A stretch of 64,000 bases of DNA from Clostridiales bacterium (GTDB lineage Bacteria > Bacillota > Clostridia > Lachnospirales > Lachnospiraceae): contig JAJQIK010000059.1 of the NCBI GenBank assembly GCA_021199255.1, positions 1 to 64,000 of the forward strand. Direction: 5' to 3'. Shown here one piece after another: positions 52,549 to 56,578 of the stretch. The translations under genes were made by a program, and so were the position numbers. Below the pieces are notes generated by a model. The model was not told where the DNA came from. It saw only the letters and a program-made list of their open reading frames with translations, and did not search any database. The first letter of the stretch is position 1. The number at the start of each line of letters is the position of its first letter.

Positions 52549-52581
52549 GAAAGAAGCCCGGCTTCCTTCCTATGCTTCTTT
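52541..52581. terminator. Bidirectional terminator shared by pyrI and the HD-GYP gene
   Basis: AAGCATAGGAA (52541-52551) pairs with TTCCTATGCTT (52567-52577), with a further inner GAAGCC/GGCTTC pairing and T-rich ends. Both stop codons fall inside it. Confidence 0.82.
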
Positions 52582-53646
52582 TCGGTTTTCCCGGGCAACC
52601 GCTTCGAACTCAGCCCTTGCCATGGCCAGACATTCTATCAGCTTGGGGGAAAATACCCCGCACTCGCCTTTGACCATCATCCGATACGCCTCGTCTGTAG
52701 TATACGCGCTCTTATAACATCTTTCACTGACCAGCGCGTCATAGACGTCGGCTACCGAGACAATCTGCGCAGATATGGGAATCTCTTCTCCCTTCAGCCC
52801 ATCCGGATACCCCCGTCCGTCATACCGTTCATGATGGTGGCGGCAGATCTCATAGCTTACTTTTCCGTAATCTCCCTTTTGAATATCCGCTATCATATTG
52901 ATAATTTCACAGCCTCTGGTCGTATGGGACTTCATGATTTCAAATTCCTCTTCCGTCAATCGTCCCGGCTTTAAAAGAATAGCGTCGGAGATGGCGATCT
53001 TACCCACATCATGCAGCGCTGACGCGGAGGTGATCACACTGATGGCGTGATCGTCCAAATGATATTCCGGATAAGTCCTTGCCACATGTTTCGCTATAAT
53101 ATTCGTAAAGGTCTTAACGCGTTTTACATGGTCGCCGGATTCCAGGTTGCGGAACTCCACCACGTTGCTCATCGTATCGATGATGCGGTCATTCATGTTC
53201 TGTAATTCTTCCGCCTGCTTGCGCAGCACCTTCGTCTGCAATTCTACCATCTCTTCCAGATGGCGCTTATTATAGTAAAGTTCGATTACATTCCTGGTAC
53301 GCTGCTTCACTATAAAAGCGTCAAAAGGCTTGCGGATAATATCGCTGACTCCCATCTGGTAGGCTTTTCGTTCCATCTGGGTTGTGGCCTCGCCGGTAAT
53401 CAGCAGAACCGGAATACTGTTGAGCCATTTCTGCTTCTTCATCTCTTCCAGCACCGCCATACCGTCCATAACCGGCATTACCACATCCAAAAGCACCACT
53501 GATATTTCGTCCTGCTTCGCGGCGATGATACTGACCGCTTCTCTGCCGTCCGCCGCCTGGAGCGTATTACATTCCCGGAACATCTCACATAAGATCTCCC
53601 GGTTAATATCTACATCATCTACTATTAATATTGTCGGTTTTTTCAT
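52570..53646 (-). CDS. Response regulator with HD-GYP domain (c-di-GMP phosphodiesterase type)
   Basis: 358 aa. Receiver at residues 1-120 (ILIVDDVDINREIL, phospho-Asp in VVLLDVVMPVMDG, Thr in LLITGEAT, Lys in RKPFDAF), a coiled linker (130-165), and an HD-GYP domain (SGDHVKRV, ASALHDVGKIAI, LKPGRLTEEEFEIMKSHT, and the signature HHERYDGRGYPDGL). HD-GYP enzymes cleave cyclic di-GMP when metal-loaded; the residues needed are present. The start at 53646 has GAGGG upstream. It is transcribed from its own promoter with a short upstream frame. The partner kinase is not adjacent; the orphan hybrid kinases at 8-19 kb are candidates. Confidence 0.93.
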   Translation of the reverse strand: MKKPTILIVDDVDINREILCEMFRECNTLQAADGREAVSIIAAKQDEISVVLLDVVMPVMDGMAVLEEMKKQKWLNSIPVLLITGEATTQMERKAYQMGVSDIIRKPFDAFIVKQRTRNVIELYYNKRHLEEMVELQTKVLRKQAEELQNMNDRIIDTMSNVVEFRNLESGDHVKRVKTFTNIIAKHVARTYPEYHLDDHAISVITSASALHDVGKIAISDAILLKPGRLTEEEFEIMKSHTTRGCEIINMIADIQKGDYGKVSYEICRHHHERYDGRGYPDGLKGEEIPISAQIVSVADVYDALVSERCYKSAYTTDEAYRMMVKGECGVFSPKLIECLAMARAEFEAVARENRKEA

Positions 53647-53685
53647 GTTTTCCCTCATTCTGCACTATTATCACGGCATCTCATA

Positions 53686-53829: not shown

Positions 53830-53948
53830 TCCGACAGATTAGGCTGCTGCCATGACAGGATACCCTGCAATCATATCATAAAAAGCCGACGCTTTCCTCC
53901 TGTAAATATTTTGTTTCAAAATAAATACAATAATATTGCGAAAAACAC

Positions 53949-53998
53949 TGGACATTTCATGATGGAATGTTATAATAATTATAACAGTAATGATTACT
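53949..53998 (+). promoter_or_regulatory. grcA promoter with perfect PerR box
   Basis: TGGACA (53949-53954), a 16-base spacer and TATAAT (53971-53976). TTATAATAATTATAA at 53970-53984 is an exact match to the 7-1-7 PerR box of Bacillus (TTATAATNATTATAA) and covers the -10. A near-perfect palindrome ACATTTCATGATGGAATGT fills the -35 to -10 spacer (53952-53970), and AGTAATGATTACT (53986-53998) follows. A repressor bound here would block RNA polymerase. Confidence 0.75.
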
Positions 53999-54032
53999 AT
54001 TATTAAATAAACAAAATATAGGAGGTGTTCTT

Positions 54033-54272
54033 ATGACACAAAACGCACAGGTAAACAACTTAGTAAATCTTTTAGACGGCTATGCAGCCAAGGGCGGGCA
54101 CCACTTAAACGTCAATGTTTTAAACAGAGATACGCTCTTAGACGCCCAGAAGCATCCTGAGAATTATCCTCAGTTGACAATCCGTGTATCCGGCTACGCC
54201 GTAAACTTTATTAAACTGACGCCAGAACAGCAGGCGGACGTTATCAGCCGTACCTTCCACGAAAGCGTATAA
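54033..54272 (+). CDS. grcA: Stand-alone glycyl-radical domain protein (GrcA/YfiD-like)
   Basis: 79 aa. Residues 25-79 are the C-terminal radical domain of pyruvate formate-lyase: [34 protein letters not shown] with the radical Gly in SGYA, and [18 protein letters not shown] at the end. The first 20 residues replace the rest of the enzyme. Such proteins (YfiD in E. coli, 127 aa) dock onto oxygen-cleaved pyruvate formate-lyase and restore activity after activation by PflA. This one is a minimal version. AGGAGGTG precedes the ATG. The promoter carries a PerR box, so peroxide or oxygen induction is inferred. No pfl gene is in the window. Confidence 0.9.
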
Positions 54273-54337: not shown

Positions 54338-54376
54338 AAAAGGACCGCGGGATATTTCCCGCGATCCTTTCTTTTC
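54338..54376 (+). terminator. Intrinsic terminator of grcA
   Basis: AAAGGACCGCGGGA pairs with TCCCGCGATCCTTT around TATT, followed by a T-rich CTTTTCTTT. It may also serve pnp from the other side. Confidence 0.85.
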
Positions 54377-54416: not shown

Positions 54417-56507
54417 TTACACCTGCGCAACATCCTTCATGGAAAAGCTGATTCTTCCCATCTTATCTTTCCCCAGGCAGACTACCGTTACTTTGTCGCC
54501 CAGCGTCAGAACATCTTCTACGCGATTAATTCTCTCTTTCGCAATCTTGGAGATATGAACCATGCCCTCTTTGCCCGGCGCAAACTCAATGAAAGCGCCG
54601 AACTCCTTGATGCTGACCACAGTACCCTGGAAGATCTGGCCCTCCTCAAAGTCTGTGACGATGGTTTTCACCATTTCCACCGCCTTGTCCATCATCTCTC
54701 TGTCCGTACCGCACACAGATACCTGTCCGTCGTCCGTAATATCAATTTTCACGCCCGTCCGTGCAATAATCTCATTGATGGTCTTGCCTCTCTGTCCTAC
54801 CACATCGCCGATCTTCTCCGGGTCAATTTGCAGGGAAATAATCTTAGGCGCATACTTGCCTACCTCTTTACGGGGCGCTGCGATGGCGGGTACCATACAG
54901 TTAGCCATAATATATTCCCTTGCCTCGCGGCATCTTGCGATCGCGCCTTCCACAATCGGTCTTGTCAGGCCATGAATCTTAATATCCATCTGAATGGCGG
55001 TAATACCGTCATGGGTTCCCGTCACCTTAAAATCCATATCGCCAAAGAAATCTTCCAAGCCCTGAATATCTGTCAGCAATACGAAATCCTCATCTGTATC
55101 TCCGGTTACCAGGCCGCAGGAAATACCTGCCACCATTTTTTTGATCGGCACGCCAGCCGCCATCAGGGACATACAGGAAGCGCAGGTAGACGCCATAGAA
55201 GTAGAACCGTTGGATTCAAAGGTCTCCGATACGGTACGGATCGCATAAGGAAACTCTTCCTCGCTGGGCAGTACCGGAAGGAGCGCCCTCTCAGCCAGCG
55301 CGCCGTGTCCGATCTCTCTTCGTCCCGGTCCACGGCTGACCTTCGTCTCTCCTACAGAGTAGGAAGGGAAATTATAATGATGCATATATCTCTTGCTGGT
55401 AATATTCTCATCTAATCCGTCTACTCTCTGAGACTCGGATAAAGGCGCAAGGGTACATACATTACAGATCTGTGTCTGTCCTCTGGTAAACATCGCGGAA
55501 CCATGTACTCTGGGAATAATGTCAACCTCTGCGGCCAGCGGTCTGATCTGATCCAGTGCGCGGCCGTCCGGACGCTTATGATCCTTTAAGATCATCTTGC
55601 GCACCGTCTTCTTCTGATACTGATAAACAGCCTCGCCCAGCACCGCCAGATACTCTTCCCTGTCAGCGAACGCTCCTTCCAGCTTAGCGGTTATATTTTT
55701 GATATTCTCCTCCCGCACCTGCTTCTCATCTGTAAAGACCGCCGTCTCCATCTCCTCAGGCGTTACGATCTTCTTCATATCCTCGAACATCTGCGCCGGT
55801 ATCGCGCAGCTCTCATAGGTATGCTTCGGTTTGCCGACTTCAGCCACGATCTGGTTGATGAACTCTATAATCGTCTGGTTTATTTCATGCGCCTTGTAAA
55901 TCGCTTCAATCACTTTAGGCTCCGGCACTTCATTAGCGCCCGCCTCAATCATGATAACCTTCTGGGCTGTGGAAGCGACCGTCATTTTCAGATCTCCCTT
56001 ATCCCACTGTTCCTGGGACGGATTCACGATCAACTCACCGTCGATCATACCCATCTGGGTCATAGCGCAGGGACCGTCAAAGGGAATATCGGAAATACAG
56101 GTTGCAATCGCCGTGCCCAGCATGGCTACCAGCTCGGGACGGCACGCCGGATCTACGCTCATAACCATATTATTTAAGGTCACGTCATTGCGGTAATCCT
56201 TGGGGAACAATGGTCTCATAGGCCTATCAATCACACGGCTTGTAAGCACCGCATTTTCAGACGCCTTGCCCTCTCTCTTGTTAAAGCCGCCCGGAATCTT
56301 TCCTACCGAATATAATTTTTCTTCATACTCTACGCTGCAGGGGAAGAAATCAATCCCGTCCCTGGGCTTGTCAGACGCTGTAGCCGTAGACAATACGGTA
56401 GTTTCACCATATTGCATAAACGCACAGCCGTTAGCCTGTTTGCCTACTCTGCCGATGTCCACGCGAAGGGTACGTCCGGCCAGCTCCATTGTGTAAGTCT
56501 TGTACAT
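54417..56507 (-). CDS. pnp: Polynucleotide phosphorylase
   Basis: 3'-5' exoribonuclease that uses phosphate, part of RNA decay. 696 aa. Two RNase PH domains (GETTVLSTATASDKPRDGIDF; second half with FPYAIRTVSETFESNGSTSMAS and GLVTGDTDEDFVLLTDIQG), then KH (DVVGQRGKTINEIIARTGVKI) and S1 (GQIFQGTVVSIKEFGAFIEF, KEGMVHISKI). The start at 56507 has AAGGAGAG upstream. It lies downstream of rpsO, as in most bacteria, with a long hairpin in between that may be its autoregulatory site. Confidence 0.97.
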   Translation of the reverse strand: MYKTYTMELAGRTLRVDIGRVGKQANGCAFMQYGETTVLSTATASDKPRDGIDFFPCSVEYEEKLYSVGKIPGGFNKREGKASENAVLTSRVIDRPMRPLFPKDYRNDVTLNNMVMSVDPACRPELVAMLGTAIATCISDIPFDGPCAMTQMGMIDGELIVNPSQEQWDKGDLKMTVASTAQKVIMIEAGANEVPEPKVIEAIYKAHEINQTIIEFINQIVAEVGKPKHTYESCAIPAQMFEDMKKIVTPEEMETAVFTDEKQVREENIKNITAKLEGAFADREEYLAVLGEAVYQYQKKTVRKMILKDHKRPDGRALDQIRPLAAEVDIIPRVHGSAMFTRGQTQICNVCTLAPLSESQRVDGLDENITSKRYMHHYNFPSYSVGETKVSRGPGRREIGHGALAERALLPVLPSEEEFPYAIRTVSETFESNGSTSMASTCASCMSLMAAGVPIKKMVAGISCGLVTGDTDEDFVLLTDIQGLEDFFGDMDFKVTGTHDGITAIQMDIKIHGLTRPIVEGAIARCREAREYIMANCMVPAIAAPRKEVGKYAPKIISLQIDPEKIGDVVGQRGKTINEIIARTGVKIDITDDGQVSVCGTDREMMDKAVEMVKTIVTDFEEGQIFQGTVVSIKEFGAFIEFAPGKEGMVHISKIAKERINRVEDVLTLGDKVTVVCLGKDKMGRISFSMKDVAQV

Positions 56508-56578
56508 AATCTTCTCTCCTTTTCCTTCCGTTTCCTTCTGCTGTCTGTGACAGAACAAAAGGAAAACATTATTTATGG

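Follow-up and report, generated by a model that had tools for sequence, protein, structure and literature searches.

On sensing peroxide, the gut anaerobe from which this DNA derives probably produces a further copy of the part of its pyruvate formate-lyase (PFL) that bears the radical and is sensitive to oxygen, as judged from the promoter of one small gene, grcA3, and from its counterparts in related genomes. This gene lies in the window examined here, a stretch of 64,000 nucleotides (G000:C61:1-64000) from a draft genome of 3.08 Mb with 99.28% completeness. In the explanation that best accounts for the data, it is likely that both grcA3 and a perR-rubrerythrin (perR-rbr) operon elsewhere in the source genome are controlled by the peroxide sensor PerR through one and the same sequence, CAGTAATGATTACTA. 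How gut anaerobes sustain glycyl-radical fermentation after oxygen is an open practical question. The grcA3 locus contains the following features:

52570-53658, minus strand: response-regulator gene, a neighbour (NCBIfam matches all below cut-offs)
53910-53931, plus strand: AT-rich upstream element, a diverged copy (alignment with the promoters of relatives)
53949-53954, plus strand: -35 element TGGACA (promoter scan)
53954-53968, plus strand: imperfect palindrome ATTTCATGATGGAAT, unconserved (mean identity 0.47 across 14 relatives)
53970-53984, plus strand: 15-mer TTATAATAATTATAA, overlapping the -10 element and unconserved (sequence and alignment of relatives)
53971-53976, plus strand: -10 element TATAAT with TG just before it (promoter scan)
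53985-53999, plus strand: proposed PerR operator CAGTAATGATTACTA, with the palindromic core AGTAATGATTACT at 53986-53998 (copy at perR-rbr, and conservation)
54020-54025, plus strand: ribosome-binding site AGGAGG (read from the sequence)
54033-54272, plus strand: grcA3, encoding a stand-alone glycyl-radical protein of 79 aa with the motif RVSGYAV (Pfam, NCBIfam, and alignment to PFL and PDB)
54346-54363, plus strand: terminator-like hairpin 3' of grcA3 (sequence scan)
54417-56558, minus strand: neighbouring gene, which we take to be pnp-like by its sequence

The 79-aa product had been called GrcA-like in an earlier, sequence-only reading of this DNA, and that identification was borne out by matches to Pfam Gly_radical (6.9e-24) and NCBIfam GrcA3 (NF038360; 159.8 bits against a cut-off of 158), together with an alignment to PDB 6owr, named Autonomous glycyl radical cofactor, over its residues 67-126. 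The same reading took TGGACA/TATAAT, which has a 16-bp spacer and 11 of 12 consensus bases, to be the only promoter of the gene; the promoter scan returned three further plus-strand matches upstream, all weaker, with TGGACA/TATAAT both the top-scoring and the closest. At the AT-rich element, approximately 20 bp 5' of the -35, several relatives carry TGTAT-N3-ATAAAATACA. Searched for in exact form in 60 genomes of the genus, this sequence was absent from the source genome and gave one match each in 10 genomes (two matches for a backwards control), at least six of the 10 being at stand-alone grcA3 promoters.

What is conserved in this promoter is the perfect 6-1-6 palindrome AGTAATGATTACT at 53986-53998, directly 3' of the 15-mer that overlaps the -10. 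When GrcA3 genes were sought by protein family, regardless of any box, in the 60 genus genomes (37 + 23), a stand-alone grcA3, outside the pfl operon, was found in 15. All 15 promoters of these genes contain AGTAATNATTACT, 13 of them exactly and two with one mismatch, and mean identity to the window across 14 relatives is 0.97 at the palindrome, in an alignment anchored on AGTAATNATTACT, which favours 53986-53998 itself. The source genome has CAGTAATGATTACTA in exact form at two places only, 53985-53999 and C73:107775-107789, the latter being 20 bp 5' of the perR-rubrerythrin operon:

C73:107809-108192: perR, a Fur-family gene, followed by the rubrerythrin gene (homology)

Among the 60 genus genomes, the exact 16-mer AGTAATNATTACTATT occurs at 24 distinct places in 21 genomes (backwards control, 2), and all 24 lie before either perR-rbr (11) or a stand-alone grcA3 (13). 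Every one of the 30 perR promoters examined, from 46 matches, carries the box with no more than two mismatches (15 exact, 12 with one mismatch, and three with two). With up to two mismatches allowed, the source genome yields eight box matches versus 18 for the backwards control, which leaves the strong matches as the informative ones. That this box also governs the pfl operon was considered and is unsupported: the box was absent, at up to two mismatches, from all 73 loci with a grcA3 copy within a pfl operon (taken from 80 named and 28 genus loci; some named records are the same genomes as those under our G handles, and the counts overlap), and only one of 43 pflB promoters, a figure that includes repeat fetches of the same places, has it at two mismatches, with none at fewer. 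Of the 15 genomes in which a stand-alone grcA3 carries the box, three gave no perR at E <= 1e-40 (G008, G024 and G070, which are 67, 68 and 87% complete, respectively). Since the box is shared with perR-rbr and conserved at stand-alone grcA3 genes, the comparative data make a PerR link of the window gene well supported, through a box other than the one first named, and it is very likely that PerR acts through the palindrome at 53985-53999, its predicted operator.

The protein that this operator would control corresponds to one domain of a divided enzyme. The Gly_radical profile has four matches in the source genome, namely the two GrcA3 genes, the PFL core, and a 741-aa frame that encodes an anaerobic ribonucleotide reductase (its longest open reading frame in the locus scores 878.7 bits, the cut-off being 657). 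The PFL core matches only the first half of the profile and ends before the domain, and neither the profile matches nor the PFL alignment revealed a fused full-length PFL in this genome. Residues 4-669 of the core align to E. coli PFL 10-681 and GrcA3 aligns to 682-758; judged by this alignment, the two together make one PFL. Across 112 loci (repeats included) the core stops 0-8 residues from the end of the homologous stretch, and fused frames of 748-789 aa are present in some genera of the family. The gene order at C63 is PFL core, an open reading frame of 67 aa, GrcA3 (80 aa) and a PflA-like gene. Both GrcA3 copies of the source genome score above the NCBIfam GrcA3 cut-off, and the pfl-operon copy is without the box. 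The small open reading frame of this operon is located as follows:

L070:7892-8095 (G000:C63), minus strand: small open reading frame of 67 aa between the PFL core and grcA3

It was matched in 73 of 73 operon loci and had no match in NCBIfam or PDB. A GCTDCSRTPLACSVPTL motif close to its end is conserved, and the 32 columns at its N-terminus can be aligned with the GrcA3 N-terminus (hhalign probability 93).

The first reading supposed that a GrcA-type spare part repairs PFL; the radical-domain gene is present as it stated, but a full-length PFL as its partner was not found in the genome. Because no fused PFL was found there, the PFL is probably a split enzyme for which GrcA3 serves as the regular radical subunit; of its two gene copies, one belongs to the pfl operon and the other, in the window, is linked to PerR. 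In one study, an E. coli PFL core cut at residue 695 is described as correctly folded and able to function in catalysis, and truncated YfiD activates it partially; the cut is also reported to weaken YfiD binding and activation and to prevent YfiD rescue (PMC8683613). These core-cut results make a natural split with a co-evolved subunit plausible; the weakened binding and activation and the lost rescue count against a subunit-exchange role of GrcA3.

With regard to mechanism, the core of the box starts 9 bp after the -10 and would lie over the likely transcription start, a position suited to repression. Metal-bound PerR dimers would occupy CAGTAATGATTACTA at 53985-53999 and, covering the start of transcription, would keep RNA polymerase out; peroxide would oxidise PerR, PerR would leave the operator, and rubrerythrin and extra GrcA3 would be produced together. 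This joint induction is proposed by analogy with Clostridioides difficile, whose PerR is reported to keep the rbr operon repressed until peroxide releases it (PMC8546684, PMC11980386). PflA would then give the new GrcA3 its glycyl radical, and the new GrcA3 would take the place of the oxygen-cleaved radical subunit; under this proposal the subunit is replaced and the PFL core therefore need not be remade. Oxygen is described as cleaving PFL at the glycine, the lost part being replaced by stand-alone radical proteins (PMC12288474, PMC8683613); where the enzyme is split, a simple exchange of the damaged subunit could suffice. On balance we favour this replacement role for the extra GrcA3, with less assurance than PerR control itself. 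The best-surviving alternative accepts PerR control and regards the second GrcA3 as extra subunit dosage only, with no repair role. It agrees with the 93% identity of the two paralogues over 76 residues, nothing obvious in the sequence setting one apart from the other; however, the operator of the extra grcA3 is one that peroxide defence genes also carry and that is not seen at the pfl operon, and a role in dosage alone appears unlikely.

PerR might instead bind TTATAATAATTATAA at 53970-53984, either by itself or in addition to the conserved box next to it, and it was on this Bacillus-type 15-mer that the first reading placed PerR. Its direct observations on the 15-mer are accurate: the 15-mer is an exact match, the sole one in the window, to TTATAATNATTATAA, the Bacillus-type PerR consensus as quoted in that reading, and it lies inside a promoter and covers the -10, TATAAT at 53971-53976 falling within 53970-53984. 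With up to two mismatches, TTATAATNATTATAA has three matches in the window (mean of 0.24 in 100 shuffles, one of which also gave three); the whole genome has three exact matches, one of them within a coding frame, and 93 sites with up to two mismatches compared to 55 for the backwards control. The reading had made conservation in orthologous promoters its own test, and there the aligned 15-mers of all 14 relatives carry 2-7 mismatches. The version in G069, whose stand-alone protein is 97% identical, has only two and speaks for a site here, but the other 13 promoters have 3-7, and the 14 relatives share with the window a mean identity of 0.67 over this 15-mer (0.56 for the right half) versus 0.97 for the conserved box. 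Arms with at least six of seven positions paired are centred at 53992 in 14 of 15 sequences and at 53977, the centre of the 15-mer, in one of 15. In addition, the organism's own perR promoter does not contain TTATAATAATTATAA, and the -10 accounts for part of the match. Two flanking palindromes had also been reported, of which AGTAATGATTACT at 53986-53998 is perfect and ATTTCATGATGGAAT at 53954-53968 has one mispaired position. The case for a special status of TTATAATAATTATAA is weak, and given the mismatches in the relatives it is unlikely to be the main site for PerR; we rejected it as such, unconserved as it is in 14 orthologous promoters of the genus, and give PerR binding at this 15-mer, in either form, a low probability. 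What comparative genomics supports is the broader claim of PerR control of grcA3, exerted via the downstream palindrome at 53985-53999 and not via the box originally named.

The proposed regulator has as its closest PDB structure 2fe3 (Peroxide operon regulator, 3.5e-24), which we take to be B. subtilis PerR. In the alignment to 2fe3 it keeps the residues corresponding to H37, D85, H91, H93 and D104, presumably the regulatory metal ligands, as well as C96, C99, C136 and C139, presumably the structural cysteines; its scores are below the NCBIfam PerR cut-offs, with 102.3 bits against 180 for the best model matched, TransRegPerRClab. A Fur-family paralogue at G000:C87:56288-56692 (L006, L022) has PerR-like ligands by eye. 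Boxes of the 7-1-7 type are alike across the Fur family, and another Fur-family protein, such as this C87 paralogue or an iron or zinc sensor, might bind AGTAATNATTACT instead of PerR. Three Fur-family proteins are encoded in the source genome in all, the second with similar ligands, which lends this alternative some substance; against it, the box stands at the promoter of perR itself in 30 of 30 loci examined and before rubrerythrins in other genera, the C87 paralogue is rare (five of 60 genus genomes), and the third protein (C73:99991) has only a partial match to the Fur profile (46.5 bits). The C87 paralogue was rejected as owner of the box on the grounds of this rarity and of the form found upstream of its relatives, namely TTAGAATNATTCTAA palindromes in the three of its four relatives that were read (L245-L247), with an extended form in the source genome. 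Binding by another Fur-family protein is about as improbable as binding at the 15-mer, and PerR remains the preferred occupant of the conserved box.

The box extends beyond the genus. In a sample of the family Lachnospiraceae with approximately one genome per genus (299 genomes), the exact 16-mer AGTAATNATTACTATT was present in 61 genomes, compared to 10 matches in 10 genomes for the backwards control. Thirty loci, from 30 of these 61 genomes, were examined, and 23 sites lie before perR or rubrerythrin, two before grcA3, two before a flavin reductase with a rubredoxin-like domain, one before an Fe-hydrogenase that also has such a domain, one before a DUF5688 gene, and one in a coding frame. 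This distribution, in the genus and the family alike, is what should be expected of a PerR operator in an anaerobe. That the palindrome at 53986-53998 is a start-site or mRNA feature and not an operator is extremely improbable, for although it lies at or just past the likely start inferred from the -10, the same sequence stands before unrelated genes of one regulon kind in many genera, and a 6-bp arm around a single base is not a usual hairpin. The locus L241:2653-3589 also speaks for PerR control: its stand-alone grcA3 carries an exact PerR-type box and has a rubrerythrin gene after it. Genes directly behind an exact PerR-type box encode an Fe-only hydrogenase carrying a rubredoxin-like domain at its C-terminus (L276:3-1481) and a DUF5688 protein (L252:540-1490, minus strand).

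Stand-alone grcA3 genes fall into a second class as well. Among 122 genomes with any GrcA3 match, the 21 from other genera that have two were examined. The PerR box is present with at most one mismatch at 11 of 20 stand-alone copies and with at most two at 12, where L342, L347 and L359 are counted as stand-alone, having no core or small open reading frame upstream, and L326, with only about 100 bases upstream and PflA downstream, is left out of both classes; none of the 21 operon copies has the box with at most one mismatch and one has it with two. Four of the remaining stand-alone copies have an exact GTAAC-N4-GTTAC, a sequence that we take to resemble HcpR-type sites, and a CRP-like gene lies upstream (tblastn) of two of these four and of two further copies, while L324 and L338 have neither GTAAC-N4-GTTAC nor a CRP-like gene upstream. 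A set of named records, the best 80 of 584 loci, includes 28 stand-alone copies, of which 11 have the PerR box with at most one mismatch, one with two, one with three (L228), and 15 are without it, L211 being placed among the latter with a two-mismatch match that runs into the start codon. In all 15 copies without the box, GTAAC-N4-GTTAC occurs exactly in the 200 bp before the gene, a sequence found at none of the other 13 named stand-alone copies and none of the 73 operon copies. Thirteen of these 15 are preceded by a CRP/FNR-type gene of the same orientation, at a distance of 118-339 bp in 12 (L164, L169, L180, L183, L207, L210, L211, L215, L216, L219, L224 and L225) and at 895 bp, behind another frame, in L218; L214, one of the two without such a gene, starts near a contig end. 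Four of the CRP/FNR-type proteins were confirmed by Pfam. With the PerR box marking one class and GTAAC-N4-GTTAC with a CRP/FNR-type gene marking the other, the GrcA3 subunit seems to be served by two different stress circuits. For the PerR explanation itself, the copies that lack its box in these two surveys are evidence against.

More tentatively, it is possible that many Lachnospiraceae have an obligate multi-part PFL in which the radical module is a separate, disposable subunit, supplied by a pfl-operon copy and by a stress copy wired either to PerR and peroxide or to a dedicated CRP/FNR-type regulator; the third, small operon protein, with an N-terminus similar to the radical domain, may act as a placeholder for the module within the core. 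If the proposal for the source genome is true, a single switch in this lineage would both sense peroxide and replace the radical subunit, the grcA3 promoter and just one other in the genome would carry an exact PerR box, and the split PFL would make repair a subunit exchange, offering a natural test system for spare-part chemistry.

Comparison with known systems places these results in context. E. coli yfiD is controlled by FNR/ArcA, whereas PerR is the regulator proposed for the window grcA3. The radical domain is common to E. coli YfiD/GrcA and GrcA3 (PDB 6owr 67-126, PFL 682-758); YfiD serves a full-length PFL, whereas no fused PFL was found in the source genome. YfiD is reported to rescue oxygen-cleaved PFL and to have an extra, disordered N-terminal region (PMC8683613). 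The name of the NCBIfam family GrcA3 (NF038360) gives a cofactor and does not mention a split-PFL operon or a PerR operator. PDB 38la and 38lb (Formate acetyltransferase) are the best matches of the PFL core and have no match to GrcA3 even at E <= 10; these structures may show PFL cores to which no radical domain is fused, perhaps those of split PFLs. Because the GrcA3 family has been named and 38la and 38lb match the core only, the split enzyme may be known to others. In a literature search with most subscription papers outside its scope, no paper was found on a split PFL, a stand-alone glycyl radical subunit or GrcA3, and the titles and abstract starts among the matches listed contained no PerR-GrcA link. 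In C. difficile, PerR represses a rubrerythrin operon until peroxide releases it, and the PerR regulon is termed rather restricted (PMC8546684, PMC11980386); three C. difficile PerR papers searched for formate and pyruvate formate gave no match. The source genome would be alike in having a rubrerythrin operon under PerR, but the regulon proposed for it would also take in a PFL subunit.
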